Shown here in pieces: positions 15,586 through 42,808 of a stretch of DNA of 64,000 nt (position 1 is its first letter; every line of letters starts with the position of its first letter). Below the pieces are notes generated by a model. It was not told the origin of the DNA. It searched no databases and was given only the letters and a program-made list of their open reading frames with translations. Made by a program: the position numbers and the translations under genes. The DNA comes from Chloroflexales bacterium ZM16-3 (GTDB taxonomy: Bacteria; Chloroflexota; Chloroflexia; Chloroflexales; Chloroflexaceae): the NCBI GenBank assembly GCA_004138175.2, contig RYFE02000013.1, positions 80,755 through 144,754 of the forward strand, written 5' to 3'.

Positions 15586-16920
15586 CTATTGCCCGCTAAA
15601 GAGATACCCTGCCCCGCGCACATTTTGTATGCATCCGGCATCTCTATTAAGGATGCGCCGGATGTTCTTTATTGCGCTCTTAAGGCGCTCACCTCCCACA
15701 ACGTCAGAATCGTTCCAGACATGCTGCTCAATCTGTGATGGGGAGACGATCTGACCGGAGTTCGCTATGAGGTAAGCCAGGAGCTCAAATTCGGCTGGAG
15801 GAAGCGGCACGAGCACCCCTCGGCAAAGCGCAATTCGCCGCTGAGGGTCAAGCGTAATTGGGGGTGACTGAAAGAGGCCGGGGATGGGCTGATGTATCAG
15901 AAACTCCTTGAAGGCACTGGAGAAGACTTGGATCTCGCCTTCGTTTCTGATCACAAGGGCCGCATTGAGCAGCCGCTGCACACCCTGCGGATCCGTTCGC
16001 CAGATAATAGGTAGCAGCGCCAGAAGCCGGCGGTCGCTTGTGGATAGCGTATGCCAGAAGTACATCCAGTGGATCTCCGCGTCAGTCCCAAAGCGTTCAC
16101 CCGTAACGGCACGGCACTCGCTCGCCTGGCTCGGATCACCATGCTGTCGCCACTCAAAGAGCTGATAGGCCGCCATCTGAAGCAAGAGTGGGTGCGGACC
16201 AGCCAGAGAGATCAGCCACGCGATCTCGTCTTGCTCAAGCGGGAGGCTGCTCTGGCCTGAGAGGTGGCGCACCATCGTCTCGGCTTCGTCATATGAGAAG
16301 AGCCGCAAGCGAATCTGAGCGAAGACATTAAAGAATGGCGAGCTCAGGATGCGAGTCTCTGCGAAGCCGAGCTCGAAGAGCGGCTTCGTTGAGACCGTCA
16401 CAAAGACAACCCCTAAACTATTGAAGATCGCCCGCAGTCCTGAGAAGAAGTTCGGGTCGAGATTGGGATTCTCGCTCAATGTATCAAACTCGTCGAGCAA
16501 AAAGACCAACTGGACCCCTTGGTCACCGATCCTGCGCACCAAATCCTCAAACTGACGATAGCTCATTGTTGAATCATTTTCGTCTGGAAATCCCAGGGAT
16601 GTATCACCGCCGTGCATGCTGCGCCCAATCTCTCGGGCGAACACCCCAAACAGCTCATCGGGCGTGAGCATTCCGCAGCTCTCGCAATCAACATACATCA
16701 TCTGTAACGAACCCGGTTCGAGATCGTGGGACTGCTGGACATGGGGGCGTGCGAGGTGCATAAGAAGCGATGTCTTCCCAATACGCCGTGGGCCGACGAT
16801 GGAGATACATTGCCCACCCCGAAGGAGATTCAAGATCTGCCGCAACTCGCGCTCACGACCGAAGAAGTAGGCCGGGTCGCGAATGGGGCCCCTGTGAAAA
16901 AACGGGTTGCCTGACAGCAT
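15586..16920 (-). CDS. STAND/AAA ATPase with C-terminal OmpR-type winged helix
   Basis: A 444-residue protein. An N-terminal P-loop ATPase has Walker A GPRRIGKTSLL (about residue 42) and Walker B LVFLLDEFD (about 138), and is related to the archaeal-type ATPase family. A winged-helix domain (about 345-444) carries the Trans_Reg_C pattern (LPPAEFELLAYLIANSGQIV, RGAGYLF). This looks like an ATP-controlled transcription factor. The start at 16920 is chosen because GGGAGAAG lies 6 nt upstream. It is the last gene of the minus-strand block that contains the contractile injection genes, 45 nt after the FHA kinase, so it may control that locus. Confidence 0.78.
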   Translation of the reverse strand: MLSGNPFFHRGPIRDPAYFFGRERELRQILNLLRGGQCISIVGPRRIGKTSLLMHLARPHVQQSHDLEPGSLQMMYVDCESCGMLTPDELFGVFAREIGRSMHGGDTSLGFPDENDSTMSYRQFEDLVRRIGDQGVQLVFLLDEFDTLSENPNLDPNFFSGLRAIFNSLGVVFVTVSTKPLFELGFAETRILSSPFFNVFAQIRLRLFSYDEAETMVRHLSGQSSLPLEQDEIAWLISLAGPHPLLLQMAAYQLFEWRQHGDPSQASECRAVTGERFGTDAEIHWMYFWHTLSTSDRRLLALLPIIWRTDPQGVQRLLNAALVIRNEGEIQVFSSAFKEFLIHQPIPGLFQSPPITLDPQRRIALCRGVLVPLPPAEFELLAYLIANSGQIVSPSQIEQHVWNDSDVVGGERLKSAIKNIRRILNRDAGCIQNVRGAGYLFSGQ

Positions 16921-16965
16921 GGTAGCTTCTCCCTCAGTGGGTACTAGTGGCACAAGTGCTGTTCG

Positions 16966-18399
16966 CTACGGCACCGGCCTGAACAGCAGCACTGCGGCAA
17001 ATACAAGCAGCAGCACTCCCACAAAAGCTATAAGCCCCTGTGTCGTCCCCGCCGCCGCCGTGGCGAGGCCAAGGGCGCCGAATCCGAGCGCTGCAACAGC
17101 CCATCCGGCCCATCGATTGCCCTGATGTGTTTTCGGCTGGGCTGTCGGGATTGGGGGTGAAGGGGCACTCACGATGGTTGGAGGTGGCGGCGCAGGCGGC
17201 TGGGGCGTTTCAAGCAGCAATCGGTACGCGCCAACATGCACCTCGTCGCCGACATGCCAACTTGCCGGCTGCTTTGGCGATAGGCGCTGCCCCCGCAACA
17301 CCGTTCCATTTCCTGACCCCAGATCTTCGACGATAATCTGTCCGCCGTCCCAGTGAATCCGCAGGTGATAGCGCGAGATCAGCGTATCGTGAGGGGGGAG
17401 CCGGATTTCGTTATCCGGCTCGCGCCCGACGCGTAGGTCTGCCAGCCCGATCTGCCACTTGCCAAGAGGCTGGCCCGTCGCGCTCTCCAGCCGCACGCGC
17501 AGATTCGGTGGGGGGGCGACCGGCTGGGGCAACACGGGCGGAGTGGGGATCGTTTTTGGAGCCGGCGGATGGAGTGGGCCGATAGCAGAAGAGAGCGCGT
17601 CGGCGAGCAATTCGGCTGATGCGTAGCGAAGGAGAGGATCTTTTTCCAGGCAGCAGCCGATAATTGCCTCTATGGAGGTGGGGATATCTGGAGCAAACAT
17701 ACGGATCGGCGGCGGAGGCTCGCTGTGATGTTTCTGCGCGGCCTCCATACGCGTCCCCGTATGGAAGGGAACGCGTCCGGCGCAGAGCTCGTACAGCACC
17801 ACGCCAAACGCATAAATATCCGCCGACGTGCTCATCTGGTTCTGACGCCAGCGCTCGGGCGCAATATATGCCGCATCTCCTTCAGTAGTGCTGCGAAGCA
17901 GGGCGATACCATAATCGGAAAGCCGGGCCGCCAATGTAGCGCTCGTAGAAGGAGATGGGCTGGGTCGCGAGTCGAGCAGGATGTTCGATGAAGTGATATC
18001 GCCGTGCATGAGACCGTATTGGTGGAGCTTTGCCAGCCCAAGAGCGCATTGCCACGCAATCGTGAGCCGCTCTAGAAGAAGCGTTTCAGATTGCCGTAAG
18101 CGGCTCCGTAATGTGCCACCTGATGCGTAATCCTGCACCAGGTAGGCATGGCCCTGCTCCACCCCAGCGCTCTGAACAGCAACCAGATATGCATCACGTA
18201 TCGAGCTGACCTGCATGGCATAGTCGCTCAGCAGGCGCTGAAAGATCGCGTCGCCGCTGTACGCCGGCGCGAAAACCTTGATTGCGGCAGTCTGCCCCCT
18301 GACGGTATTTCGGCCAAGGAAGACCCGTGCGCGAGATCCACGTCCAATCTCTTGCTCTAGGCGCATCCCGCCAAACGATGTCCCTATCAATTCCGTCAT
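16966..18399 (-). CDS. Ser/Thr kinase-like protein with FHA domain and C-terminal membrane hairpin
   Basis: A 477-residue protein. The kinase fold fills about 1-270. Its catalytic loop reads HGDITSSN instead of HRDxKxxN, so the HRD Arg and the Lys after Asp are missing, and the DFG motif reads DYG. A Pro-rich linker leads to an FHA domain (about 320-395, RVGREPDNEI and SRYHLRIHW and GSGNGT). Two adjacent hydrophobic helices close the protein (WAGWAVAALGFGALGLATAA and LIAFVGVLLLVFAAVLLF), so it should sit on the cytoplasmic face. The gene starts in a TGATG overlap with the FHA-tail protein gene, which strongly links the two. It may be a weak kinase or a pseudokinase scaffold. Confidence 0.82.
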   Translation of the reverse strand: MTELIGTSFGGMRLEQEIGRGSRARVFLGRNTVRGQTAAIKVFAPAYSGDAIFQRLLSDYAMQVSSIRDAYLVAVQSAGVEQGHAYLVQDYASGGTLRSRLRQSETLLLERLTIAWQCALGLAKLHQYGLMHGDITSSNILLDSRPSPSPSTSATLAARLSDYGIALLRSTTEGDAAYIAPERWRQNQMSTSADIYAFGVVLYELCAGRVPFHTGTRMEAAQKHHSEPPPPIRMFAPDIPTSIEAIIGCCLEKDPLLRYASAELLADALSSAIGPLHPPAPKTIPTPPVLPQPVAPPPNLRVRLESATGQPLGKWQIGLADLRVGREPDNEIRLPPHDTLISRYHLRIHWDGGQIIVEDLGSGNGTVLRGQRLSPKQPASWHVGDEVHVGAYRLLLETPQPPAPPPPTIVSAPSPPIPTAQPKTHQGNRWAGWAVAALGFGALGLATAAAGTTQGLIAFVGVLLLVFAAVLLFRPVP

Positions 18400-19373
18400 C
18401 AGAACAGCTCCAGATAGTAGCCAACATGGGCGGGCTTGTACAGCTCAATGATCGCAGCCAGCCAGTCCTCGCTCACACCGCTACTCCGTGGCACCTGCAC
18501 CCGGAAGGTATGCGGATTACCTGTTTGATCAATCTTAACCTCGTTTTGAAGACCTGTATACGCCTTGATCGCGAGGAGCAACCCGGCCTGGGTGCCGCGT
18601 TGCTCGTGGAGCGTGGGCGCATGCACCAAAATACCTCTGCGCCGCTCAAGGGGTGTGCCCGGCAGAAATTCGATCCCGAGCCAGCGGGCTAGGAGGTCGA
18701 GGAAAGGCTCGGGGCATGTGGCGGGGTGAAACCATGCATCGATATAATCCTGGCGCTGCTCTAATGGCTCCCATATCTCCTCGAAGATTTTTAGATAGCG
18801 GGCGAGGAAGCCGGGGGCATCAGATCGTTCGCCCACCTGAAAGATGATTGGCAACAATGCTAGGTATTGTGATGGGCCGGGCTGTGCAACAGGCCATATG
18901 ATCGGCCTCCTCTGGGCGTCCCCCGCTGCTGCTTGTGTTGAAGGTGCAGATAGCCGGATCGTGCCACCGGTCGCCTGTGCCGGCACCTGCTTAGGGGCGG
19001 GTGCGGGGGGCGGCGCGGGGGCGGGCGCGGGGGGCGGGGGGGCGCGCAGGATCTGGATCTGTAGCTGGAAGGAGGTGATGGAAATCTTGTCTCCATCGCG
19101 CAGCGTGACCGCAGGGCTCCCCTGGGTGAGCGGCTGCCCATTGAGGACGGTCGGCTGGCTGGAGCTCCGATGGACAAGCTGCACCTCATCGCCGACCAGA
19201 CGAAGCTCGGCGTGCTGGCGTGAGACGTGGGCTTTGCCATCATCGATCAGCACATCAGGGATCACGGCGCCATCGCCGCGCCCGATCACCACGCCCGCCC
19301 GCAGCGCCGCTGCGTCAAACTCCTGTGGCGCTCGTCCATCACTCACCGTCACGCGGAGGCGTTGTACTGCCAT
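18399..19373 (-). CDS. FHA domain fused to phage tail protein I-like baseplate protein
   Basis: A 324-residue protein. The N-terminal half is an FHA domain (GVVIGRGDG, HVSRQHAELRLVG), then a Pro/Ala linker (about 120-150). The C-terminal half matches the tail-protein-I family of contractile tails (YLALLPIIFQ, FLARYLKIFEEIWEPLEQRQDYID, LARWLGIEF, RGTQAGLLLAIKAYTG). The start at 19373 has GAGGGG 7 nt upstream; a longer frame to 19616 overlaps the baseplate J gene and is rejected. FHA domains bind phosphothreonine, so the fusion would let a kinase product recruit or lock the baseplate. That role is inferred. Confidence 0.82.
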   Translation of the reverse strand: MAVQRLRVTVSDGRAPQEFDAAALRAGVVIGRGDGAVIPDVLIDDGKAHVSRQHAELRLVGDEVQLVHRSSSQPTVLNGQPLTQGSPAVTLRDGDKISITSFQLQIQILRAPPPPAPAPAPPPAPAPKQVPAQATGGTIRLSAPSTQAAAGDAQRRPIIWPVAQPGPSQYLALLPIIFQVGERSDAPGFLARYLKIFEEIWEPLEQRQDYIDAWFHPATCPEPFLDLLARWLGIEFLPGTPLERRRGILVHAPTLHEQRGTQAGLLLAIKAYTGLQNEVKIDQTGNPHTFRVQVPRSSGVSEDWLAAIIELYKPAHVGYYLELF

Positions 19374-19383
19374 TGTCAGCCCC

Positions 19384-21465
19384 TCAAGTAGGATCTTCTT
19401 GTACTCGTACCATGTGTACATCGGAGCAGATGATGCCGTAGACCGGGAACGACGCGATCTCTGCGATGATCTCCTGGCTTCTGCCACCTCGCCGCAGCGT
19501 TGCTTTGAGCGCCTGCGCTGGAACGTACGCACTCCCGAGAAGAGGCTGGATGCGCCCGTAGATCTCGTTGACTCGTAGGGTTCGGCCAAATGGCCAGCCG
19601 GCCCCGCCTGGCCCACCGGTATACGGATTAAGATAGCGATAGAGTTCCTGGGCGACCGTCTGCTCGATCATCCGCTGGATTGGTGCCGGCGTTCCGCGAG
19701 GGACGCGCAGATCGAGCACGATCTGCACCGGGTAGATCTCGGGTGCCCGAAAGCGTACGCTGGTGCCAAGCATCACACAGGGTGCGATCTTTTTTTCGAG
19801 ATCCACCTCCAACTGGCTAGCAAGCGTCTCAATCTTATCAATCGGGATCTGACCGTCCTCCGCCTCGACATTGGGAAGCACCACCAGCACCACTTCACCA
19901 GGGGTAGGTCGTGGCATCCCTGGCGTAGCGCCGGTGCCCTGGCGCCCTGGCGTGTATGCGTATGCGCGGCTCACATCACGTACCTGCTGGGCGAGTGTGA
20001 CGAAGTCGGCGGCGGTTACGGCACGATCGCGCGTGCGCAACGTCTCAGGCGCACGGGTGGCTACGTCCTCGATGCTCTGTGCGTCCGCGCCACCGTGGGT
20101 TCGCGCCCGGTTACGCGCCGACTTTATGTAGGACGGTGCGCTCTTGAGCACAATCAGCTCGTTTGCGGCCAAGTTCCCATCCCGGCCTCCACCGTGCCGA
20201 TAGTGAGAAAAGCGTAGCCTGCTGCCGAGCGGCGGCACCATCCCAAAACTATGCAGCGCCCCGTCGGGCTGGACAAGCGCTGGCCCCAGGCGCACGGTGC
20301 CGTCGATTGGGTCGAGCGTATAGTGGCGGCTTTGCCCGCTGGAGCCGCCAAAATCGTTGCACTTTGTCCACAGCTCCTCGCGCCCCTCGAAACGTACCAC
20401 CAATTGCTCATCGGCGGTCGGATCGAGCACTGGCGCGTAGCGTAGTCGAAATGTCTGTCCAGGGGTGCCGTCGCTGCGGCCGAGCTCCTCGTCACGCACC
20501 AGCCGGGCGTGCGATGCATCCACCGTCCCGCCCCATGTCTCTGCAGTGATATCAACCGCTGTCGGCGACTCCTGGTACCAGTTCGTCGGCTGCTGCTGCC
20601 CGTTGATCACACAGCGCAGCCAATACCCGCTCACGCCTCCATGGGTAGTCTCGACCATCGCTTCGGGTAGGTGGAACGCGATGTTTCCCGTCTCACTGAA
20701 ACCTCGCGTCGTGTTGGTAAATCCGTTTGCCACATCATGCTCGGGGGGGACGCGCTGCCACCCAAGCATGCTGTCGCCAAGCAGGCACTGGGCCTCCCAG
20801 CGTAGCGGCGGCCGATCCGGCTGAAGCCCCACTGGCTTAGCATCCACGACGGTGAACGTGAGCTGGACGAGCTGGCTGCTTGGGTCCTGCGCAAAGCCAA
20901 TGTAGAAGGCATCGCCATTATCAGGGCGTCGATTTGATCGCTGCTTCTTATCATCGGGGAAGAGAGCGATCGGGAGGCTCAGCCGCTGCTGGGAGTTCAG
21001 CACGTGGCGGGTCATGTGATCAGTTCGACCGATAGCGCTTGCATTCTCTGTGAGGAAGGCTTTGATCTGGGCTGGCCTGATAATCAGCAGCTTGCTGGTG
21101 CTGAAGACAACTTCGGGGCTCTCGGCCTTGCGGCGGGTGGCGATCTCGGTGCCTGGCTTCACCTCTACCTCGGCTGGCTGCGGCGCCGACAGGTAGAACG
21201 TTATCTCCGCCTCGGCCGCCTTCGGGCCACTCCGCTTCACACCAATGAGTTCGAGCAGCCGGTTCTGTAGCCGGTCGGGGATGCGATTGACCCGAAAGAG
21301 CAGGGTCTCGGTCATTGCCGCAAAGATCTCGATCAGCGCGACACCGGGGTCGCTGACGTTGTGATCGGTCCACTCCGGGCAGTATCTAGGGATGAGTTCG
21401 GTCTTGGCCCAATCGACAAGATCCTGGGCGGTGCGCTCGTCGAGAGCTGGTGTCACAGGCGGCAT
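19384..21465 (-). CDS. eCIS baseplate protein, gpJ/Afp11-like
   Basis: A 693-residue protein of the putative baseplate assembly J family. Its N-terminus (DLVDWAKTELIPRYCPEW, DPGVALIEIFAAMTETLLFR) and the segment RDRAVTAADFVTLAQQVRDVSRAYA are characteristic. It forms the wedge of the baseplate around the spike. GGAGG lies 5 nt before the ATG. It is followed after 10 nt by the FHA-tail protein I gene and preceded by gp25, the standard baseplate order. Confidence 0.9.
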   Translation of the reverse strand: MPPVTPALDERTAQDLVDWAKTELIPRYCPEWTDHNVSDPGVALIEIFAAMTETLLFRVNRIPDRLQNRLLELIGVKRSGPKAAEAEITFYLSAPQPAEVEVKPGTEIATRRKAESPEVVFSTSKLLIIRPAQIKAFLTENASAIGRTDHMTRHVLNSQQRLSLPIALFPDDKKQRSNRRPDNGDAFYIGFAQDPSSQLVQLTFTVVDAKPVGLQPDRPPLRWEAQCLLGDSMLGWQRVPPEHDVANGFTNTTRGFSETGNIAFHLPEAMVETTHGGVSGYWLRCVINGQQQPTNWYQESPTAVDITAETWGGTVDASHARLVRDEELGRSDGTPGQTFRLRYAPVLDPTADEQLVVRFEGREELWTKCNDFGGSSGQSRHYTLDPIDGTVRLGPALVQPDGALHSFGMVPPLGSRLRFSHYRHGGGRDGNLAANELIVLKSAPSYIKSARNRARTHGGADAQSIEDVATRAPETLRTRDRAVTAADFVTLAQQVRDVSRAYAYTPGRQGTGATPGMPRPTPGEVVLVVLPNVEAEDGQIPIDKIETLASQLEVDLEKKIAPCVMLGTSVRFRAPEIYPVQIVLDLRVPRGTPAPIQRMIEQTVAQELYRYLNPYTGGPGGAGWPFGRTLRVNEIYGRIQPLLGSAYVPAQALKATLRRGGRSQEIIAEIASFPVYGIICSDVHMVRVQEDPT

Positions 21466-21479
21466 GCGTCCCTCCGCAA

Positions 21480-21872
21480 CTATTCCTCGGGGATGCGATA
21501 GAACGGGTAAACAAGCGACCGGCGGTCGAGGGTTGCTTTCAGCTCATACTCGATCATGATCAGCAGCCGCTCCATCGCCTTTGGGTCGAGGCGTACCTGA
21601 ACATCAAGGAGACGAATACGTGGCTCCCACATTCCAAGCGCCTGCTCCACATAGTACATGGCGAGGCCGATGGTATTCGCGTCGCTCGGCGCAAAGAGCA
21701 GATCGTGGATCTCGCAGCCGAACTCGGGTCGCAGCGGCCGCTGTCCCTTTGGCGTGGACAAGATCATGATGATCGCCTCCTCTACATCCTGCACGCCAGC
21801 CGATAGGGCGACCTGTCCGCTGGCGTCGAGATGCACCGGAAACGCCCATCCCCGACCAAGAATGTCGGTCAT
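21480..21872 (-). CDS. gp25/GPW baseplate wedge protein
   Basis: A 130-residue protein of the gp25 family (Afp9-like), with the conserved EEAIIMILSTPKGQRPLRPEFG and an acidic-aromatic C-terminal half. It joins sheath and baseplate in contractile particles. The start is the ATG at 21872, with GGAGG 6 nt upstream. An upstream TTG in the same frame (21884) overlaps the PAAR gene stop and is less likely. Confidence 0.9.
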   Translation of the reverse strand: MTDILGRGWAFPVHLDASGQVALSAGVQDVEEAIIMILSTPKGQRPLRPEFGCEIHDLLFAPSDANTIGLAMYYVEQALGMWEPRIRLLDVQVRLDPKAMERLLIMIEYELKATLDRRSLVYPFYRIPEE

Positions 21873-21873
21873 G

Positions 21874-22371
21874 TTAGCCTCCAATAATGACGCTCTGCTC
21901 GCCTGCGATGATCGTGTCCGGCGGCCCGAGGGCCTCTAGCACCGTATCGCCGACGCGACACGCCGGCAGCCCTTCGATGAAAACTGACGTTGACCCATTG
22001 ATGACGACCCCCGGCCCATGCGGCGGGATCGGCAGCGGCATCCCACATGTGTGGATGTCGCTTGGGCCAGCCGTGGCCATCACGAGGGCGCCCATCGCCA
22101 GCCCCTCGGCCGTCTTGAGCGCCTGCTCGCTCGCCTTGGCGGCTGGAAATCCGGGCGTCCCAGCGGCGGCGGCAGTAGCAGCCTCTGCCGCTGTAATCCT
22201 GGCCTCCGACGCCTGCTTCGCCGATGTCAGCCCGCTCACTGCTGCTGTGGGAATACCGCGCCAGGCCGGGCGCTTCCCAATACGAACGCTGGGGCTCCCC
22301 ACTCCGGTGAGCGTCCCCGGAGGGGCATGGGCGACACCATCGGTGACACGAGCTGCTGATCCCTTTGGCAT
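21874..22371 (-). CDS. PAAR-type spike tip protein
   Basis: A 165-residue PAAR-repeat protein that would cap the spike. PAAR-like signatures lie at both ends (AARVTDGVAHAP, then DIHTCGMPLPIPPHGPG and GLPACRVGDTV). Between them is an Ala-rich helical insertion of about 55 residues (about 48-100) that ordinary PAAR tips lack. Such an insert could be an extra docking segment. GAGGAG lies 6 nt before the ATG. It sits directly between the spike and gp25 genes. Confidence 0.87.
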   Translation of the reverse strand: MPKGSAARVTDGVAHAPPGTLTGVGSPSVRIGKRPAWRGIPTAAVSGLTSAKQASEARITAAEAATAAAAGTPGFPAAKASEQALKTAEGLAMGALVMATAGPSDIHTCGMPLPIPPHGPGVVINGSTSVFIEGLPACRVGDTVLEALGPPDTIIAGEQSVIIGG

Positions 22372-22381
22372 ACCGTACTCC

Positions 22382-24100
22382 TCAGTTCAGATTGATGAAT
22401 GTTCCGTTGATGTCGACATTCTTAGGCCTGCTGTCAACCGCAATGCCCTTCTTGCCCTTGATGCTCACGCTACCCGCAGCGTCAAGCGCCAGATCACCAC
22501 CGGCCTTGAGCGTGAGGTCGCCGCTGCTCTCGACGACCAGCGGGTGCTGGCCTTCGGTGCCGACCTTGATCGCGGCGTCGCCCTTGATCGTGATCTCCAG
22601 GCGCTTTTCTTTGCTCTTCAGGTGAATGGTGTTGCCCTCACGGTCGGCGATGCAGACGCCGCCCTCTGCCGGGTCATCGTCAAAGACCAGCAGGTGCCCA
22701 GTTCGTGAGCGGAATAGCCGCTGACGCACCTTGCCCGACTTCACGACCGTATCAGTGGGCCGGGGCGGCACATCCAGCTTGTTCCACAAGCCACCGATGA
22801 TGTAGGGGTAGTTGATGTCGCCGAGCTCGAAGGCAACAAGTACTTCATCATTAATCTCGGGAATGAGCTGGAGCCCGCGCTCGCCGCCGCCGCCAGGCAC
22901 AACAACCCGAGCCCAATCACTCGTATGCTCGCTCGACAGGTAGGGGAATCGCACCTTGACCCGACCGAGCCCATTGGGGTCCTGGTTATCAGTGACAATG
23001 CCGATCATCGGCAGCGCGCCCTCCGTCGCGGAGGCGCGCGGCAGCAGCCGGGCCAGCAGCGTCGCCGGGTTGAGCCCCGAGATGGTAAACTCGGTCTGGT
23101 AGCTCCCGCCGCTGTGGCGATGAAGCGCCGAGGTGACGAGGTACTCGCCCCCAAAGCGGTCGCCGACGGCGCTAATGCGAACCTTTGTGCCTGCGATAAT
23201 TGCGGGGTTCCCGACACAGACACCATCGGCCTCGACATACCGGCCGGCATGCTGATCAGCCACAGCCTGAGCCAGGCGCTCGGCATCAGCCTGCGTGCGT
23301 ACCGTGATGTGTGAGATAAGCGCCTCGGGCTGTAGCTTAAAGGCCGAGCGCACGAGTTCCCCGCCGCTGCGCCCATCGCCGATATGCGGCGCGCCCTGAC
23401 CTGTCTCGGCCTCGCCGATAATCTCCTCGCGCGTATCCGGATTCCAGCCCCGCGCCGTCACCTTGCTCAGCTGCCCGGCGGTGGTGAGGTGTGGGCGAAA
23501 ACTGACGAGCCCGGCGCCCCACTGGAGCTCGACCGGCTTCCCTTCAGCTGCCAACGGCTCGCAGCACAGGGTCTCGCCCTCGACAAAGAGCAGATTACCC
23601 AGGGCAGCGGCGCGCGTGCGGAGAAACTCCAGGTTGCTGGTGTTGGCCTGAATGAGGTAGGGCCGAACCTCGTTGGCCTGCGTAGCCTTTGCCTGAAGCC
23701 CGGCCTCCTCGGCCAGCTTTCGCATCAGATCGCTGTCCGTCATATTGGTGAAGCTACGCACCTGGCGGATATGCCCGAGGCGGTGGAGCCGATCAAAGGC
23801 GCGAACGACGAGGTGATGGGTATGATCGTCGAAATCTGGCTCGATCTCGACGATCTCGCCATCAAAGATCTGCTCCTCGCTCGCGCCGTCGGTTGCCCAG
23901 ATGCTGACTTTGACCCCAGGGTCGAGCGTATCGGCATCAATCCACGCAAGCTTTGGGTCATGGATCACCAGGGTGGCCACGTCGGGCAGGTGCAGGCTGC
24001 TCTCGACAGTGATGGACTCGAGGGCGGCGAGTAGTTCCTCAGGCGCATCATTGTCGTTGAGCGTTACATAGCACTGGGTCATGCGGGCCTTGTCACTCAT
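22382..24100 (-). CDS. VgrG/gpD-like spike protein (Afp8-like)
   Basis: A 572-residue spike. The N-terminal part to about 330 is the gp27/phage late control D fold (ARGWNPDTREEIIGEA). The gp5 OB-fold follows (GIVTDNQDPNGLGRVKVRFPYL, SDWARVV, ELGDINYPYIIGGLW). The C-terminal beta-helix has short repeats of alternating hydrophobic residues (GDLTLKAGGDLALDAAGSVSIKG). The start at 24100 has GGAGG 5 nt upstream; a longer frame to 24154 is rejected. It overlaps the LysM hub gene by 8 nt. Confidence 0.92.
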   Translation of the reverse strand: MSDKARMTQCYVTLNDNDAPEELLAALESITVESSLHLPDVATLVIHDPKLAWIDADTLDPGVKVSIWATDGASEEQIFDGEIVEIEPDFDDHTHHLVVRAFDRLHRLGHIRQVRSFTNMTDSDLMRKLAEEAGLQAKATQANEVRPYLIQANTSNLEFLRTRAAALGNLLFVEGETLCCEPLAAEGKPVELQWGAGLVSFRPHLTTAGQLSKVTARGWNPDTREEIIGEAETGQGAPHIGDGRSGGELVRSAFKLQPEALISHITVRTQADAERLAQAVADQHAGRYVEADGVCVGNPAIIAGTKVRISAVGDRFGGEYLVTSALHRHSGGSYQTEFTISGLNPATLLARLLPRASATEGALPMIGIVTDNQDPNGLGRVKVRFPYLSSEHTSDWARVVVPGGGGERGLQLIPEINDEVLVAFELGDINYPYIIGGLWNKLDVPPRPTDTVVKSGKVRQRLFRSRTGHLLVFDDDPAEGGVCIADREGNTIHLKSKEKRLEITIKGDAAIKVGTEGQHPLVVESSGDLTLKAGGDLALDAAGSVSIKGKKGIAVDSRPKNVDINGTFINLN

Positions 24101-24824
24101 GGGTGCCTCCGCGTACCTGGAGCCGTCGCTCGCCCGTGGCCGCCGTGCGTGCATCGCCGCCGCGCGGACGGGGCGGGATCGTCAGCTGCGCGCCTGGCCG
24201 CAGATGGCGCAGATCGTCGAGTCTGTTCGCCTCGGCGATCAGCTTCCACTGACCCACATCGCCATACTCGCGATAGGCGATCTGGCGTAAGGTGTCGCCC
24301 TCCTGCACGGTCCAAACCCGCTCGCCGCCCACACCGCCAGAGGTCGGGTTCTGCTTTGGGAAGAGCTTCTCGTCGGTGATCTGCTGAAAGCTCATGTCGA
24401 GCAGGGCGCGCACTGGCGTTCCGTCGGCCAGAAACAAGGTGAAGCGCTGCGTGATGCTGGTGATCACGGCATCAAAAGACCAGCTGCTCCCCCAGTGGAA
24501 GCGCACTTTTGGCGGGCGGCCCTTCTGGTTCTTCTTATCCTTCAGCCCCTCGTCCACCAGCATGAGCGCCCACACCCTGTCGGTGTAGACTTTGCGCACA
24601 TCTTTCCCCTCGGTGTAGGTGTCAAAGAGCAGCTGCATCTGAAGCGTGGCGGGCTGGCCATTGCTGAACTCCACCTGGGGCACATTGGCACCATTTGTCT
24701 TGACTGGCGCCCAGGTGTTCTGCTTGCTGAAGCTGTACTCGCTTGGGTTGAAGTGGCAGGGGATCGGTGCCTCCTTCGTGTCAAGGTTCATGATCGAGGC
24801 GTGGGCGATTGTCGGCTCAGTCAT
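24093..24824 (-). CDS. CIS tube/hub protein with C-terminal LysM domain (Afp7-like)
   Basis: A 243-residue protein. The N-terminal part (PCHFNPSEYSFSKQNTW, LQMQLLFDTYTEGKDV) is the contractile-injection tube-domain family that joins spike and tube. The C-terminal LysM domain (about 170-220, TVQEGDTLRQIAYREYGD) is usual in this family. The start ATG at 24824 has GAGGAG 7 nt upstream. It overlaps the spike gene, so the two are translationally coupled. Confidence 0.88.
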   Translation of the reverse strand: MTEPTIAHASIMNLDTKEAPIPCHFNPSEYSFSKQNTWAPVKTNGANVPQVEFSNGQPATLQMQLLFDTYTEGKDVRKVYTDRVWALMLVDEGLKDKKNQKGRPPKVRFHWGSSWSFDAVITSITQRFTLFLADGTPVRALLDMSFQQITDEKLFPKQNPTSGGVGGERVWTVQEGDTLRQIAYREYGDVGQWKLIAEANRLDDLRHLRPGAQLTIPPRPRGGDARTAATGERRLQVRGGTHE

Positions 24825-24835
24825 GGCATGGCTCC

Positions 24836-26689
24836 TCACCACTCACCAGAGCGCCGCTGCTCTGCCAGCAGGCGTCGGCGCAGTACGGCATAGACATCAC
24901 GGGCCAGCGCGTCCAGATCCGGGGCGACCTCTGGTGGTGGGGCAGGTTGTATTGATGATCGCTCGCCATCAGCTAGGGTGCGGCCGCGCTCAGCGAGCTC
25001 GTAGCCGGGCGGCGCGTTGCCCCCGTCCGGCGTCGTGGGTGCGGGCACGGCAGGCACAGGAACTGCCGCCGAAACAGGCGCTGTCGGCACTGCGGTGGCG
25101 GGCGAGTCCCACACGGGCATGGGGTCCCAGGGGGCCGGGAGCCCATACCAGGAGCGCTGTGGCAAATCTGACTCGGGGGGTGCGGCAGGCGCTCCCTGCG
25201 GACCGATGATCTCAGCGGCTGACTCGACAGGTGTACCTTCCGGCGCAAGGCCCATTTTGGCCCGGGCGGCCTGCCGGATCTCGGACTCGGTCTGTCGCGC
25301 AATGGCCTCCTCCCCAGTTGGAGGGGCCGCCATCGCCGCGCGCAGGGCTGGAGGGATGAAGCCCGGATTGCGCCGGCGCGCCACATGGGTGAGCTCGTGG
25401 CCGAGCAGGCCGAGCCCAGCCGGACTGTCCTCGCTCTGCCCGGCGGCAAAGGCCACGGTTTCACCAGCGGTGATCGCGTCCGCCCCAAGTGCGCTGGTCG
25501 CCCGATCCGCCTCGGGGCCGCGCAGGATGCGCACCTCGGCCGGGTCAATACCGACGAGCGGTCGGAGGAAGCGGCGGGTCGCGTCGCGCACGGGCGTAGC
25601 AGGGGTGGCTGCCAGGCGCGCGGGTGCTGCTGCTGGAGGTGTGCCTGCATCACTCCGCCTGCCCGTCGGCGTCATGGACGGCTCGTCAGTCGGCGTGCCG
25701 AAGAGTCGCGCTGCCCACACCACCGCATCTGATGGCGCGGTCGGCTCGACAGCGGGCGTCGTGGGAGGTAGGGTCTGTGCCGCCTGCGGTGTTGCTAGCC
25801 CAGGAGGCTGCCTCATAGGCAGATCGTCCGTGGGGTTGATCGGGGGCGGTGGCGGACTGAAAAGCCGTGCCGCCCACGCCGCCGGGCTGTCATCGCGCTC
25901 GGCGGCCGCTGGCAGCGCTTCGGGCTGCGCCGACGCGGTATCTTCCTGCGCCTGTGCGCGATCTCCTTCCGGCGCAGGCTGACGCTGCGTTGGTAGCGGT
26001 TGGGCTAACGCCGCAGGCGAACCGACAGGCGGCGGGGCGTCCCGCCCCTCCTGATCAGCCCTCGCTGTGGCAGCGCTGGCAGGCGAGGGGGCCTCCGCAT
26101 CTGTCTCAGCCACGGACGCCCCAATAACGAGAGGCGCATCCGATTCGGATGGGCTGACGCCCGCAGCCGCCAGGGGCACAGCAAGATCTTCAGAGACAGC
26201 CTTGGCGCCAGGGGGCGGGCCGGCATGCGCAGTGGTCGCGGGCTGGGGCGATGGCGTCGGCGGTCGGCTGGATGACTGCTCTGTAGCGGGGGCAGGTCGC
26301 CGCATCCTCCCGAGGAGTGGCGCAACAAGGCGGGCGAACCAGCTCGCCCCAGCGGAGAGCGGCGCGGGAGCCACAGGCGCTACGCCGCCTGCTGGTGGTA
26401 AGGCAGCGCGAACATTTGACTGGGAAGCGAGAGCAGGCTCTCGCCGGATCGCTGCGGCCAGATCTGAGCGGGACAAGTCTTCAAGTACGAAGGGGGACCC
26501 AACATCTCCCGCAGGATCGTCGGCGATCACATGGCCGGCATGGAAGGTCGGCGGGGCCACACGCTCAGCGTACGCCCCCTCCGCAAGCTCGTGCAAGATT
26601 GTGTGCTCGGTCAGCCGCAGCGCGAGCAGCTGCCGAGAGAGGATCTGGCGCGTCATGCGGCTAGCAGGCATTAGTTTTGGAGAGCTCAT
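24836..26689 (-). CDS. DUF4157 (eCIS core) protein with HExxH motif
   Basis: A 617-residue Pro/Ala-rich, low-complexity protein. A DUF4157 domain lies at about 385-450 (FLRPLVGIDPAEVRILRGPE, then LLGHELTHVARR). HELTH is an HExxH zinc-peptidase-like motif. DUF4157 proteins are markers of eCIS loci and often act as loaded cargo or adaptor proteins. The C-terminus has a helical tail (LDALARDVYAVLRRRLLAEQ). It stands between the second tube gene and the LysM gene. Since no other gene looks like a tape measure, this long, probably extended protein is the only candidate in the locus, but that is a guess. Confidence 0.82.
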   Translation of the reverse strand: MSSPKLMPASRMTRQILSRQLLALRLTEHTILHELAEGAYAERVAPPTFHAGHVIADDPAGDVGSPFVLEDLSRSDLAAAIRREPALASQSNVRAALPPAGGVAPVAPAPLSAGASWFARLVAPLLGRMRRPAPATEQSSSRPPTPSPQPATTAHAGPPPGAKAVSEDLAVPLAAAGVSPSESDAPLVIGASVAETDAEAPSPASAATARADQEGRDAPPPVGSPAALAQPLPTQRQPAPEGDRAQAQEDTASAQPEALPAAAERDDSPAAWAARLFSPPPPPINPTDDLPMRQPPGLATPQAAQTLPPTTPAVEPTAPSDAVVWAARLFGTPTDEPSMTPTGRRSDAGTPPAAAPARLAATPATPVRDATRRFLRPLVGIDPAEVRILRGPEADRATSALGADAITAGETVAFAAGQSEDSPAGLGLLGHELTHVARRRNPGFIPPALRAAMAAPPTGEEAIARQTESEIRQAARAKMGLAPEGTPVESAAEIIGPQGAPAAPPESDLPQRSWYGLPAPWDPMPVWDSPATAVPTAPVSAAVPVPAVPAPTTPDGGNAPPGYELAERGRTLADGERSSIQPAPPPEVAPDLDALARDVYAVLRRRLLAEQRRSGEW

Positions 26690-26690: not shown

Positions 26691-27137
26691 CTATGTGCCT
26701 AACGCAATACCCTCGTGCGCAAGCTCAAGGGTCTCGATGGCGATCACGCTACTGTCAGCGGTGAGCTGCGGGCCGACCCACTTCACCGGGTAGGCGTCGC
26801 TAAAGTTCCAGCGCGCGATCGGCTCGCCGCGCAGGCTGTACTGAATCACTGATACCTGGCGACGGTCGATCTTCCCGCTCACAATATCGAGGTACCAGCG
26901 CAACAACTCGTGCGTGCTGGTAACGCCGCGCTTCAGGGTCAGGTTGCTCACCGTGGTTCGGCCAGGCAGGCGCCGGGCGAAGCCGTTGTTGCCGCCCTCG
27001 GCGTAGGTGGTCACCTCGGTCTCGATCTGTAAGCCGCTCACCTCCGTGAAGACCGCCTTCGCAATCTTGTCGATCTCCACATAGAAACGGCAGGCAGGGT
27101 TGGCCTCTTGCTTGCTGTTATCGTCCTGGGTCATCAC
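26691..27137 (-). CDS. eCIS inner tube protein 2 (gp19 family)
   Basis: A 148-residue tube protein with the gp19 pattern (CRFYVEIDKIAKAVFTEVSGL, LTLKRGVTSTHELLRWY, ETLELAHEGI). It is paralogous to the gene at 27539 and resembles Afp5-type tube-initiation proteins. AAGGA lies 6 nt before a GTG and 9 nt before the following ATG, so the start is uncertain by one codon. Confidence 0.9.
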   Translation of the reverse strand: MMTQDDNSKQEANPACRFYVEIDKIAKAVFTEVSGLQIETEVTTYAEGGNNGFARRLPGRTTVSNLTLKRGVTSTHELLRWYLDIVSGKIDRRQVSVIQYSLRGEPIARWNFSDAYPVKWVGPQLTADSSVIAIETLELAHEGIALGT

Positions 27138-29903: not shown

Positions 29904-29929
29904 GGGTTGTGCCACTCCTTTTGCTACCG

Positions 29930-37545: not shown

Positions 37546-37643
37546 AGCTGGCTCCGCCCTACCAGTTGTGCCTGTTGATCACTCGTATCGGTCAACGCGA
37601 GGCGTTGTTCATGCTGATCAGCACGTCAAGCGCGGACTGTCAT

Positions 37644-38477: not shown

Positions 38478-38576
38478 CGCTTACCTCCAGTTCGGGTGGC
38501 TGCCTGATTGGCATCCGTTTGATGGCTGGTGTCTGCACGATGGGGAGAGATGTTGGTTGGGGTGTCTCGTGTGCCC

Positions 38577-38702: not shown

Positions 38703-38717
38703 TGAGAAACTGCCTAG

Positions 38718-40049
38718 CTACTCGGACTCGGTGGTCGCTCCGGGCGGCAGCGGGGCGCGCGGCGCGGACTGGCGGGCCACCCTGGTGATCTGTAGCTCGG
38801 GCGGTGCCCCTGGCGCGGGCGGGGCGACCAGACGCAGCCGAAACGGGCCGACCTGGGCCTCGCCGCCGTAGGGCCAGGGCCGACGCTCATTCCGCTGGAG
38901 CTGCGCGCCGTCGAGCTTCGTGCCGTTGCTAGAGCCGAGGTCGGCCAGGAGCACGCCGCCGGTGGCCCAGCCGACCCACAGGTGCTGCCGCGACACCTTC
39001 GGGTCGTCAAGCACCAGGGCGTTGTTCGGCTCGCGCCCGACGGTAATCCCCGTCGCCGGCAGGCTCAGGCTGGACGCCGAGCCGTCGGGGGCGATCACAC
39101 GCAGGAGCTGGCCCTGCGCGTGGCTGTTGAGCAGCTCGGTGGGCGGCACCATCGGCCACCCGCCGATTACGGTCGGCCTGTCGGGGGTGAGGCTGGTCGC
39201 TAGTGCCGTGGCCAGCTCGGCGTCGTCGGCGTAGCGGTCGGCAGGGCTCTTGGCCAGGCAGCGCAGCACAATCGCCTCCAGGGCCGGCGGGATGTCCGGT
39301 CGCAGCGGGCGTGGCGACGGCGGCGGCGTATGCAGGTGGGCGTGGATCGCCGCCGGCAGATCACCGGGCGGGATGCTGAACGCCGTCTGCCCGATGAGCA
39401 GCTCGAAGAGCACCCCACCGAGGGCATAGATATCACAGCGATGATCGAGCGGCCCGCCGCTGAGCTGCTCGGGCGCGGCGTACTCCAGGGTCACCCAGAG
39501 GCTGCCGGGGCGGGTGACATAGGCCCCGACGCCATGCTGGAGCCGGGCCAGGCCGAAGTCGCCGATCTTGAGCGTCGGCGCGTCGCCAGGAGCCTCGCCT
39601 GGCTGGAGCAGCAGGTTATCGGGTTTGATGTCGCGGTGGACGACGCCGCGCCTGTGGGCGTAGGCTAGCCCGCGAGCGGCCTGGGCGGCCAGATCGACCA
39701 CCTCGGCCAGCGGCAGGGCCCGGCCACGCTGCTGGTAGCCGGCCAGCAGGCCGCGCAGCGAGCCGCCGGAGGCCAGCTCCATCACCAGGTAGAGGCGACC
39801 GCTGGCCGGGTCGAGGCCGCAGTCATAGGAGCGCACAATGTTCGGGTGGTCGAGCCGGTCGAGCGAGCGCGCCTCCCGCAGAAAGCGGTCGCGCAGCTCC
39901 TGGCTGGCCGCGAGCTGGGCGCTCAGCACCTTCACAGCCACCTGTCGTCCGGTGAGCGGGTTCACGCCCAGGTAGACCTCGCCCATGCCCCCGGCGCCGA
40001 GCTGGCGGTCGAGGCGGTAGTTGCCGAGGATGTGATTTATGAGCATCAT
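38718..40049 (-). CDS. Soluble Ser/Thr protein kinase with C-terminal FHA domain
   Basis: A 443-residue protein. A complete kinase domain occupies about 10-270 (GAGGMGEVY, VAVKVL, HRDIKPDNLLL, DFGLARL). An FHA domain at about 335-415 (VGREPNNALVL, SRQHLWVGW, GSSNGTKLDG) closes it. No membrane segment is seen, so unlike its neighbours it should be cytosolic. The gene starts in an ATGA overlap with the stop of the 920-residue kinase, so the two are co-translated. Confidence 0.87.
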   Translation of the reverse strand: MMLINHILGNYRLDRQLGAGGMGEVYLGVNPLTGRQVAVKVLSAQLAASQELRDRFLREARSLDRLDHPNIVRSYDCGLDPASGRLYLVMELASGGSLRGLLAGYQQRGRALPLAEVVDLAAQAARGLAYAHRRGVVHRDIKPDNLLLQPGEAPGDAPTLKIGDFGLARLQHGVGAYVTRPGSLWVTLEYAAPEQLSGGPLDHRCDIYALGGVLFELLIGQTAFSIPPGDLPAAIHAHLHTPPPSPRPLRPDIPPALEAIVLRCLAKSPADRYADDAELATALATSLTPDRPTVIGGWPMVPPTELLNSHAQGQLLRVIAPDGSASSLSLPATGITVGREPNNALVLDDPKVSRQHLWVGWATGGVLLADLGSSNGTKLDGAQLQRNERRPWPYGGEAQVGPFRLRLVAPPAPGAPPELQITRVARQSAPRAPLPPGATTESE

Positions 40050-42808
40050 TTCTGTAAACAGGGATTAGGGCTATTGCTGACCCGCGACCCACACCAGGGG
40101 TGGCTACCGCTCCAATTCCCACGAAATTGATCGGTACTAAGATCTACAAACCACCAACTAAAGGAACCTTTGTTCCTGGTGCTCCAAGTGCCACTTAAGC
40201 TCCAGGCTTTCACTCTTCCTTCAATAGTACCATTGGAGTACGATCCGCTAACATAGTCACCGGTCTGGGTTAGTTGTGCCCATGCATTACTAGGCATTTC
40301 ATCGCCGTAAAGCGTCCATCGTCCACTAAACCCGCAGCCATTAGGAAGCGATCCGCTACGAACACCACACCATTGATGAGAGCCTCGCCATCCGGACCAA
40401 TTGCCTTCGAAATAGTTGCCCCGTTCATTCATAACAAATTTGATACTGCTTTGTTCAGTCGATGACCCAACATAACCTTCTAATGTACGGTTCTGAATCG
40501 TGCCCTTAAGGGGTACTTCAACCGTTTCCCCGTAACGTACATAACTTCCGTATGCAGAATCACCATCCTGTGTAATTCGTACGGTCGCGAAATTAGTAAA
40601 CCAAGTACCCGAGAAATCTGCGCGACGCCGCTTTGCTTCTTCTGCAGTAGCCGTAAGGGCTACATCCCTCTGCCGAGCCGCTTCCTCGGCCTGACGACGG
40701 GTTTCCTCATCCGCCTGGTGCTGGCGCTCCGCCTCGGCGGTCTCGGCGGCAGCGGTCTGCTGGGCGACCGCCAACGCCTCGGCGGTCCCGGCGGCCGAAA
40801 TGGCGGAGGCGGTCTGGCTCGCGGCGACCTCAGCCTCGCGGGTCGCCGCTGCATCTGCTGCAGCCTGGACGGTCTGCTGGGCCGCGACGGCCGCCGCCGT
40901 CTGCGCGTTTACCGCAGCTTGGACGGTCTGCTGAGCGACAACGGCCGCCGCCGTCTGCGCGTTCGCCGCCGCTACCTCGGTCTGAGCGTTCCCTGCCTGA
41001 TCGGTGCTACGCACGGTCGTCTGGTTGAAGGATGCGACCTGGTTTGTCATGCGCGCCTCGACGGTTGCTGTGGCGTTTGCCGGCTGGTCAATATAGATTT
41101 GTTTTGCCAGCAGGCCGCCGCCGCCGCAGAGTAGCACCAGCAGCGGCAGTATGATCGCCAGCAGCGACGGCGGCACCCGCGCCCCCTGCACAAACTGGAG
41201 CGACGCGGCGCTGGGCTGGGCTCCGCCGCTGAGCCCAACCGTGATCGCGTGGGTCATCGGGCTGCCGATAAACCGGCCATGCCCTGTGGCCTCCACCCGG
41301 ATCTCGCCCTCGGCCCCCGGCTCTAGGCCGAAGCCGGCCGCCGGGTCAAGCTGTTGCCCGCCCGCGCTGAAGCGGTAGCGCAGCATGCCGCGCGGGTCCT
41401 CGGCCCGCAAGGTGTAGCGGGATGGAATGTTGCCGTCGTTGCGCACATTCAGCGTGTAGCTGGCGCTGCGCTGTCCGCTCGCCACCTGCGGTCGGGCCGT
41501 CAGCGCGCCGCCGGCGAAGGGCTGCACGCTCCACAGCGCCTGGGCCACGCCCGTCTCGGCCGGATTCGCCTGCGACTGAGCCTGGATCGTCACCGGATAG
41601 TCCCCCGCCCGGCTGGACGGGTCGCGCGGCACGGTCACGGTAAACTGCACCGGCCCGCTCTGGTTCGGGTTCAGCCCGATCTCTTCGCTTGACGGGCTGA
41701 CCCAGCCCGGCGGCACGCCCGCGACCGTCACGGTGAAGCGGTCAACCTGCGGGCCGAGGTTGGTTACCGCCACCGAGATCAGGGTCGAGTCACCCGGAGT
41801 GAGCGCTAGGCTGACCCGGTCGGGCGTGACCTGAATGTGGGCCACGGTGCCGAGCAGGGTGGTCTGCCGGGGCGCGGGCACCGCCTGGGCCATGTGCGGC
41901 GCGGTCTGCTGGAGCACGGCCCGCAGGGCGCTCGCCAGCTCCCCGGCTGTCTGGTGGCGATTGTCGGGGTTCTTCTCCAGGCAGCGCAGGATGATCGCCT
42001 CGACCTCGTGGGGCAGATCGGGGTTCAGCGTGCGCGGCAGCTGGGGCGTGTTGAAGATAATATTGAAGACCGCCGCCTCAGGGGTGTCGACATTCACCGG
42101 CAGGGCTCCGGTGGCGATCTCGTAGAGCACCACACCGAGCGCGTAGATATCGCTGCGGCCGTCGATCGCCGCCCCCTTGCACTGCTCGGGCGACATGTAG
42201 GCCGGCGTGCCGGGTTGCAGGCCAGTGCTGGTGAGCTGGGTGCGGTTGGACAGCCGGGCCACGCCGAAGTCAGCCACCTTGAGCTGATAGGACTCGACGG
42301 GCGTCTGCGGCAAACCGAGGAGCCCGGTGAGCAGATGGTTGGGGTCAGCGGCCGGGTCGATCCGGCGCAGCAGCAGGTTCTCGGGCTTGATATCGCGGTG
42401 GACGATGCCCTGGGCGTGGGCGTGGGCCAGGCCCTCGGCCGCTTGGGCGGCCAGGTCGAGCCCCAGCGAGAGCGGCCACGATCCGCGCGAGCGGCGCATC
42501 AGCAGGCCGCGCAGGGAGCCGTGCGTGATCAGCTCCATCACGAGATAGAGCTGGCCGTTCTCCTCGCCTGCCGCGTAGATCTCTACGATATTCGGGTGCT
42601 TCAGTTGCCCGGCCAGGCTGCCCTCGCGCCGGAAGCGCTCCTGGACTTTGGGATCACTGGCCAGGTTGGTGTGCAGCACCTTGAGGGCGACCAGGTCACT
42701 GCTCTGGGGAAGATGGGCGCGGTAAACCTGGCCGATGCCGCCGCTGCCCTGGGGCAGCACCGAGTCGATGATATAGCCGCCGAGCGTCTGGCCAATCTGG
42801 ATGCTCAC
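40046..42808 (-). CDS. Membrane Ser/Thr kinase with Ig-like stalk, Ala/Gln coiled coil and repeated external domain
   Basis: A 920-residue protein. Complete kinase domain about 10-290 (HRDIKPENLLL, DFGVARL), with an insertion of about 20 residues between catalytic loop and DFG. Ig-like/NEW3 segments to about 570, one membrane helix (LLAIILPLLVLLCGGGGLL), then an Ala/Gln/Val repeat region likely to be a coiled coil (about 615-720). The C-terminus has two FSGTW/FSGRW modules with conserved WCG (HQWCG, HPWCG), whose ligand is unknown. The start is the GTG at 42806-42808, with GAGGGG 7 nt upstream. It is the first gene of the kinase/eCIS block. Confidence 0.86.
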   Translation of the reverse strand: MSIQIGQTLGGYIIDSVLPQGSGGIGQVYRAHLPQSSDLVALKVLHTNLASDPKVQERFRREGSLAGQLKHPNIVEIYAAGEENGQLYLVMELITHGSLRGLLMRRSRGSWPLSLGLDLAAQAAEGLAHAHAQGIVHRDIKPENLLLRRIDPAADPNHLLTGLLGLPQTPVESYQLKVADFGVARLSNRTQLTSTGLQPGTPAYMSPEQCKGAAIDGRSDIYALGVVLYEIATGALPVNVDTPEAAVFNIIFNTPQLPRTLNPDLPHEVEAIILRCLEKNPDNRHQTAGELASALRAVLQQTAPHMAQAVPAPRQTTLLGTVAHIQVTPDRVSLALTPGDSTLISVAVTNLGPQVDRFTVTVAGVPPGWVSPSSEEIGLNPNQSGPVQFTVTVPRDPSSRAGDYPVTIQAQSQANPAETGVAQALWSVQPFAGGALTARPQVASGQRSASYTLNVRNDGNIPSRYTLRAEDPRGMLRYRFSAGGQQLDPAAGFGLEPGAEGEIRVEATGHGRFIGSPMTHAITVGLSGGAQPSAASLQFVQGARVPPSLLAIILPLLVLLCGGGGLLAKQIYIDQPANATATVEARMTNQVASFNQTTVRSTDQAGNAQTEVAAANAQTAAAVVAQQTVQAAVNAQTAAAVAAQQTVQAAADAAATREAEVAASQTASAISAAGTAEALAVAQQTAAAETAEAERQHQADEETRRQAEEAARQRDVALTATAEEAKRRRADFSGTWFTNFATVRITQDGDSAYGSYVRYGETVEVPLKGTIQNRTLEGYVGSSTEQSSIKFVMNERGNYFEGNWSGWRGSHQWCGVRSGSLPNGCGFSGRWTLYGDEMPSNAWAQLTQTGDYVSGSYSNGTIEGRVKAWSLSGTWSTRNKGSFSWWFVDLSTDQFRGNWSGSHPWCGSRVSNSPNPCLQK

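Follow-up and report, generated by a model that had tools for sequence, protein, structure and literature searches.

The 64,000-nucleotide stretch of the Chloroflexales bacterium ZM16-3 genome analysed here (contig RYFE02000013.1, positions 80,755 to 144,754; hereafter the window) encodes a contractile injection system (CIS) in which an FHA domain is fused to a wedge protein of the baseplate, within a block that also encodes four kinase-type proteins. The fusion, listed last in a preliminary description of the window, is the most informative feature of the locus: in alignments it is a kept architecture that recurs beyond the window, and kinase genes lie behind it at most of the loci scored. 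With a probability of roughly one half, we propose that the wedge FHA domain and the kinases of the locus bring about phospho-dependent docking and firing of a cytoplasmic CIS particle. This proposal is drawn from sequence, namely from the fusion and how widely it occurs, from the kinase genes beside it, and from the catalytic and FHA pocket residues that are conserved in most members. The preliminary interpretation of the block, as an extracellular CIS (eCIS) wired to a Ser/Thr kinase and FHA circuit, is partly supported.

A baseplate wedge protein with an FHA domain

The fusion gene probably starts at position 19373, giving a protein of 324 aa. Its Tail_P2_I half matches a 190-aa chain of Protein Data Bank entry 9gtp (E 4.9e-28), which was also the top Foldseek match and which is the baseplate of the Streptomyces coelicolor CIS, with wedges Cis11 and Cis12 (PMC12237407; this and the other papers identified by PMC numbers are cited from those parts of their text that were available). 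We infer that the matched chain is Cis12, partly because the fusion has a match to the CIS12 family that falls below threshold. The AlphaFold model of the fusion contains a confident FHA domain (residues 1-110) and a confident wedge domain (169-324), and the stretch joining them is poorly ordered, with a predicted local distance difference test score (pLDDT) below 50 at residues 128-162; as modelled, a flexible tether of about 50 residues would let the FHA domain reach out from the wedge.

A protein search with the window fusion returned five further proteins with both Pfam domains (P0003-P0007), and a profile search found 13 fusion proteins, that of the window included, among the best 120 of 444 matches; four of the fusion proteins among these best 120 carry an organism name, in every case from Chloroflexota. 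When an alignment of the fusion was compared with 400 genomes of the phylum, full-length or near-full-length matches were obtained at 23 loci in 21 genomes of eight families (the match in G238_C158 starting at position 34 of the alignment), and a 24th locus with the fusion, G240, was seen on annotation. The same alignment identified 19 loci in named genomes, 17 of them with the fusion; the remaining two are L174, which is cut at its 5' end so that its FHA state is unreadable, and L176 (Acidobacteria), which shows no FHA. Zero matches were found when the window fusion protein alone was used to scan the named genomes, and a scan of viral contigs with the alignment gave zero relatives. Altogether, 33 fusion loci are known when the named genomes are included, 30 in Chloroflexota and three in Deinococcales, the named carriers including Thermogemmatispora tikiterensis, T. 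aurantia, T. carboxidivorans, Ca. Viridilinea, Roseiflexus, Oscillochloris and three Deinococcales metagenome-assembled genomes. One Deinococcales locus with both the fusion and a kinase (L173) has a rearranged gene order, with both genes upstream of those for LysM, spike, PAAR and sheath.

In a phylogenetic tree of the neighbouring wedge protein gpJ (56 rows, without a Streptomyces sequence), the window belongs to a main fused clade of 23 rows (support 100/99) together with Roseiflexus and Thermogemmatispora loci, in which L176 is the sole unfused row; the fused rows outside this clade are G136/G382, G240/L177/L179, G061 and G370. NCBI labels some of the fusion proteins 'FHA domain-containing protein', and the FHA domain of the fusion is thus annotated in databases but not discussed within the literature searched. 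By title or the start of the abstract, no paper was found that describes a link of a CIS to FHA domains, threonine kinases or phosphorylation, subscription papers and preprints being outside this search.

Kinase genes behind the fusion

Matches to the cap family PF14065 were present in 82 of the 400 genomes, and the surroundings of most of these places (84 contig regions, not all) were annotated with profiles grown from the window proteins. A kinase gene lies within 10 kb downstream of the wedge gene on the same strand at 26 of 30 fused loci and at 1 of 18 unfused loci (Fisher p 2e-8); if at least 3 kb of downstream sequence is required, the counts become 23 of 27 and 0 of 17. Three of the 33 fused loci seen were dropped, having less than 3 kb downstream and no kinase in it (G370, 109 bp; L172, 1,180 bp; G061, 2,455 bp), as were 18 of the 36 unfused loci under the same rule, and eight named loci that duplicate G-handle loci were excluded; short loci with a visible kinase (G286, G156, L169, L174) were retained, which biases the first count toward the proposal made here. 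Among the 42 scorable rows of the gpJ tree, a kinase was found in 22 of 26 that are fused and 0 of 16 that are not. Roseiflexus and its kin (G158, G323, G335) have at least three kinase-FHA genes in a row.

An explanation by chance, in which the kinase and FHA genes would be unrelated neighbours in genomes rich in them, could draw on the 69-72 kinases scored in each of five Thermogemmatispora genomes and on the window's 5' kinase cluster, which is not seen in the sister species. However, a kinase is present at 19 of 23 loci where genome-wide kinase counts predict 0.62, and in 10 of 14 by genus where 0.34 would be expected; scoring was stopped at 72 kinases per genome, so that the Thermogemmatispora counts are slightly low, and larger candidate counts were used for G293 and G240. 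The loci include genomes with few kinases (G136, 4; G382, 5; G025, 4), in each of which one kinase sits behind the fusion, and adjacency of genes cannot account for a fusion within the wedge protein. This test of kinase density rejects the idea that the genes are together by chance in kinase-rich genomes, and unrelated neighbourhood of any sort appears extremely improbable; the co-occurrence above chance, a check suggested in the preliminary description, was found within the 10 kb tested. Of the 36 Pkinase and 30 FHA matches in the genome of the window (6.27 Mb in 127 contigs), 4 Pkinase and 5 FHA matches fall within the 27 kb of the block, a density above chance.

The 925-, 443- and 994-aa kinases of the window have all six of the residues compared (Lys, alphaC Glu, HRD Asp, catalytic Lys, Asn and DFG Asp, reading KEDKND). 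All five FHA domains of the window keep G-R, S and H, and four keep NG, so that the loss of phosphothreonine-binding residues named beforehand as counter-evidence was not found. Across the fusion regions, K, E, D, K, N and D are all kept in 26 of 42 kinase domains, and K, D, D in 29 of the 41 at loci with a readable wedge FHA; the wedge FHA domains keep GR in 31 of 33, S in 25, H in 32 and N in 20 (one of the 33 is cut off), with G-R, S and H together in 25. Among 25 loci with both a visible kinase and a readable wedge FHA, a count that omits L171, whose wedge FHA is cut off, along with any fused locus at which no kinase is visible, the FHA serine is replaced by alanine in five, and an intact kinase (K, D, D) occurs at 0 of these 5 versus 18 of the 20 with serine (p 4e-4). 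Four of the five FHA-Ala loci belong to one clade, along with G302, where the serine is kept and the kinases are decayed; G370 and G061, outside this count, likewise have no FHA serine. These residues suggest that the wedge FHA serine and kinase catalysis have been lost jointly, though mostly in one clade.

The wedge FHA might instead dock to membrane FHA/Ig receptors without phosphorylation, leaving the kinases as scaffolds or relics, as could be argued from the subclade in which the kinases have no catalytic Asp and the wedge FHA has alanine for serine, and from the unfused loci G153, G209, G241, G325 and G283, where FHA genes occur and no kinase follows the wedge gene. The majorities of kinase domains with K, D, D and of wedge FHA domains with G-R, S and H speak against such phosphorylation-free docking, which we consider improbable.

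Twelve full-length aligned kinases share a common chassis of Pkinase, FHA, two Ig-like domains and a membrane span near residue 700. Identity to the 994-aa protein of the window, taken over successive 50 residues, is 0.22-0.49 up to residue 700 and 0.05-0.16 beyond. The structural model of this protein shows the domains in the same order; it is confident from the kinase through both Ig-like domains, less confident at the membrane helix, and not confident in the external part, over which the aligned kinases have no homology in common. The parts beyond the span differ, with an FGE-sulfatase domain in the window and a weak PQQ-propeller match in G050, and FHA-only span proteins of G158 have Calx-beta or Big_13 in this position. 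By hydropathy, the 925- and 994-aa kinases have a single span apiece, in agreement with the two single-span membrane kinases reported previously, the 277-aa FHA protein has two spans, and the 477-aa protein has one long C-terminal hydrophobic stretch. The topology predicted from hydropathy places kinase, FHA and Ig domains inside the cell and the variable part outside. It is highly unlikely that the kinase-FHA proteins are themselves effectors injected by the CIS: toxin genes of eCISs do tend toward the 3' end of operons (PMC8213781), but a protein of some 1,000 aa that carries a predicted span would be poor cargo for the tube, and an FHA domain sits on a structural wedge protein.

Proposed docking and firing of a cytoplasmic particle

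According to Gaisin et al. (2026; PMC12998442), the CIS of Roseiflexus was found extended as long as cells were intact, contraction being confined to lysed cells, CIS particles have also been purified from T. carboxidivorans, and Roseiflexus and related CISs are placed within lineage IId. The same paper, in its available part, states that close homologues of CisA, which in Streptomyces is needed for firing and possibly for membrane attachment, are absent in Roseiflexus, and that the firing mechanism may therefore differ from that of Streptomyces. We propose that an external cue would activate the predicted membrane-spanning receptor kinases of the locus, which would phosphorylate threonines on themselves or on locus partners; the wedge FHA would read the phosphothreonine mark, and this contact would conditionally dock a free particle at the membrane, where docking would cause contraction and firing. 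The receptors would thereby fill the role that CisA has in Streptomyces. Docking and firing are favoured because the predicted topology, with a wedge FHA in the cytoplasm and kinase and FHA domains on the cytoplasmic side of membrane receptors, fits a conditional dock. More tentatively, and with rather more doubt, the shared kinase-FHA-Ig-Ig-span chassis may carry interchangeable external sensors, at times several in succession, and several receptors may engage, through their phosphothreonines, the tethered FHA domains on each wedge, pulling the particle to the membrane and firing it.

Alternatively, the kinases may govern how the particle is synthesised, assembled or loaded with cargo, the wedge FHA binding a cytoplasmic phosphoprotein and licensing completion of the baseplate, as phosphorylated Fha does in the type VI secretion system (T6SS). 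Several loci encode kinase-FHA proteins free of predicted spans (that of the window has 443 aa, those of G158, G323 and L169 have 618-655 aa), which is in keeping with this, as is the T6SS of Serratia, in which phosphorylated Fha overcomes a block in assembly of the basal complex (PMC6082577). On the other hand, many fusion-adjacent kinases have a predicted span followed by a variable part, and there are kinase-less FHA-span proteins too, which membrane docking or sensing would fit better than a purely cytoplasmic assembly role. A role in assembly therefore seems unlikely, if the most serious of the alternatives to docking and firing.

Several observations weigh against phospho-dependent docking and firing. 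The kinase-like protein next to the fusion in the window, of 477 aa, reads KYDTND, the alphaC Glu and the catalytic-loop Lys being lost, and to judge from these residues it is probably impaired, while the three intact kinases lie at the opposite end of the block from the fusion. The wedge FHA of the window reads GRSRH but has QP in place of NG. One subclade, which includes the second CIS of this genome, has decayed kinases and a decayed FHA pocket, so that not every member can depend on phosphorylation. A kinase is missing from four scorable fusion loci over the lengths available, namely G161 (19 kb), L175 (10 kb), G240 (3.9 kb) and G238_C158 (3.3 kb). FHA genes also lie near the wedge genes of seven unfused loci (G153, G209, G241, G105, G325, G283 and G356), and in the downstream sequence available at each (280 bp in G105) no kinase follows the wedge gene; in G209, a kinase is found upstream on the other strand. 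The fusion needs just one change on the gpJ tree (scorable rows), so that the contrast between fused and unfused loci is not phylogenetically independent, and a single phylogenetically independent pair was available, which gives no power; near-copies were counted as well (five Thermogemmatispora; L177/L179).

Further such points come from the sister species G238, the nearest relative of the window, in which the preliminary description would have expected kinase and FHA genes at the corresponding locus. The fusion is indeed kept there, on contig C158, but no kinase was found in the 3.3 kb that remain to the end of the contig; the AAA+ and cap genes are on a separate contig, from which the upstream kinase cluster is missing, and this species has no full-length counterpart of the 994-aa kinase. 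Thus the kinase cluster of the window is local, and the fusion with a kinase behind it is the general habit. Finally, in R. castenholzii and two Deinococcota, CIS particles were seen free in the cytoplasm and unanchored (PMC12998442), so that any docking would have to be conditional; the membrane-docked particle suggested earlier does not stand as a permanent arrangement, and is possible as a conditional one.

The locus in the window and related systems

All of the described genes are on the minus strand, between positions 15586 and 42823 (Table 1). The CIS gene set was identified by Pfam (30 window proteins scanned), PHROG and NCBIfam (ten each) as ten structural genes with AAA+ and eCIS_core genes, in accordance with the nearly complete eCIS described before. 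No capsid or terminase (DNA-packaging) family matched among the 30 proteins scanned against Pfam, and on these proteins the reading as a phage or tailocin was rejected. Of the one-strand block with short gaps that had been described, the common strand holds and the tight packing does not extend to the upstream kinase cluster, which is more loosely packed than the CIS part; its gaps of 240, 98 and 354 bp leave a single transcript of the block only putative. The four kinase-type proteins (925, 443, 994 and 477 aa, the last three with FHA) are present as reported, except that the 925-aa protein had been given as 920 aa, as read from an internal GTG; the 277-aa FHA membrane protein and the FHA-baseplate fusion, encoded in a 405-aa open frame with Tail_P2_I, were also confirmed by domain scan and hydropathy and complete the set of five FHA domains.

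Table 1. Genes of the CIS and kinase block in the window, and FHA genes noted at other loci
Feature	Position	Strand	Basis and remarks
Ser/Thr kinase, 925 aa (920 from internal GTG)	40046..42823	-	Pkinase, Ig-like domain(s) NPCBM_assoc/FixG_C; one predicted membrane span, C-terminal part predicted outside; FHA-free; catalytic residues intact
Ser/Thr kinase with FHA, 443 aa	38718..40049	-	span-free by prediction; catalytic residues and FHA pocket intact
FHA protein with two predicted C-terminal membrane spans, 277 aa	37644..38477	-	Pfam, hydropathy
Receptor kinase, 994 aa	34561..37545	-	Pkinase 13-287, FHA 362-416, two Ig-like; predicted membrane helix ~690-710; FGE-sulfatase domain 745-990, predicted outside
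Predicted small lipoprotein, 176 aa	33676..34206	-	hydrophobic N-terminus ending TSAC (lipobox by eye)
AAA+ ATPase with winged-helix domain, 656 aa	31724..33694	-	Pfam, PHROG
Orphan protein between AAA+ and cap, 307 aa	30773..31696	-	single 62% relative in protein database
Cap protein (Pvc16_N)	29930..30766	-	Pfam
Contractile sheath	28029..29933	-	Pfam
Inner tube protein 1 (T4 gp19)	27539..27979	-	Pfam
Tail-assembly-chaperone-like protein, 119 aa	27171..27530	-	phrog_508, weak
Inner tube protein 2 (T4 gp19)	26691..27137	-	Pfam
eCIS_core (DUF4157) protein, 617 aa	24836..26689	-	Pfam
CIS_tube and LysM hub protein	24093..24842	-	Pfam
VgrG-like spike	22382..24154	-	Pfam
PAAR spike tip	21874..22371	-	Pfam
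gp25-like baseplate protein	21480..21884	-	Pfam
Baseplate wedge gpJ (TIGR02243, taken as Cis11-like)	19384..21465	-	Pfam, NCBIfam
FHA fused to baseplate wedge Tail_P2_I (taken as Cis12-like)	18399..19616	-	key part
Kinase-like protein with FHA and C-terminal hydrophobic stretch, 477 aa	16966..18399	-	Pfam, hydropathy
nSTAND NTPase with winged-helix regulator, 455 aa	15586..16953	-	3' end; block membership uncertain
FHA proteins near unfused wedge genes	L160:112-1833, L100:10301-12142, L161:1503-4400

The preliminary description had not named the 617-aa eCIS_core protein, the predicted lipoprotein, for which there were zero family matches in Pfam, PHROG or NCBIfam, or the FGE-sulfatase end of the 994-aa kinase. 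The orphan 307-aa protein is a possible cargo. The nSTAND NTPase, with its winged-helix DNA-binding part, is a candidate regulator, and a gene for a Crp-type regulator (43049-43756) lies on the same strand just upstream of the block. As noted before, no PP2C match occurs among the 30 window proteins, and the seven PF13672 places of the genome are all on other contigs; in G161, a fusion locus without a kinase, a PP2C (PF13672) match adjoins the cap gene (G161:C165:5394-5969). By Pfam and hydropathy, the FHA proteins near unfused wedge genes are of three kinds: FHA with DUF4159, VWA with FHA and hydrophobic stretches, and tandem FHA with a predicted span.

This genome has two CIS loci, C33 (of the intact sort) and C99 (of the decayed sort), the latter probably together with C107. 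The second CIS (G000 contigs C99, L181:7106-14512, and C107, L034) has an FHA-wedge fusion with alanine for the FHA serine and a 1724-aa FHA-Ig open frame, and C99 ends in a kinase whose catalytic residues are decayed; the locus may continue in a kinase-FHA-Ig gene with which contig C35 (L182) ends. In the sister species, a 997-aa open frame (L194:9798-12788) with, by eye, a nucleosidase-like domain and a late hydrophobic stretch stands behind the fusion instead of a kinase.

The cytoplasmic CISs of lineage IId in Chloroflexota and Deinococcota (R. castenholzii, T. carboxidivorans) share their phylum and gene set with the system described here, which is known from genes. T. carboxidivorans PM5, of the species with purified particles, encodes an FHA-wedge fusion and a kinase-FHA-span gene (L170); the words 'kinase' and 'FHA' are absent from the main text of PMC12998442, and the phospho-module is not described there. 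In the Streptomyces coelicolor CIS, the 190-aa chain of 9gtp is related to the Tail_P2_I half only, and the membrane protein CisA, needed for firing, is predicted to touch Cis11 (PMC12237407); 'kinase' and 'FHA' do not occur in the main text of that paper either. The core genes, the DUF4157 protein, and the LysM and Tail_P2_I shell domains are common to eCISs in general, for which the available part of Geller et al. (2021; PMC8213781) names as regulators GerE/BTAD proteins and some histidine kinases, the sole kinase type mentioned; its main text has 0 occurrences of 'FHA'.

The T6SS pathway of PpkA, Fha and PppA with TagQRST likewise combines a membrane Ser/Thr kinase, periplasmic input through proteins that act on PpkA, an FHA reader and a contractile machine (PMC10482370, PMC6082577). 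The reader here is fused to the baseplate wedge rather than being a separate Fha, and the 30 window proteins scanned gave no match to a PppA-type phosphatase or to the T6SS membrane complex TssJLM. The external FGE domain of the 994-aa kinase recalls TagR, which is FGE-like.

The fusion and the kinases offer a concrete candidate trigger, open to experimental test, by which free cytoplasmic CIS particles may reach the membrane and fire; both occur in a thermophile species that is in culture and from which particles have been purified. If phospho-dependent docking is the trigger, it would be the missing one of the cytoplasmic CISs of Chloroflexota and Deinococcota, and the swapped external domains of the receptors would hint at what each species senses. 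Contractile machines would then have come under phosphothreonine control at least twice, in the T6SS and in a second invention here, with the reader built into the baseplate.

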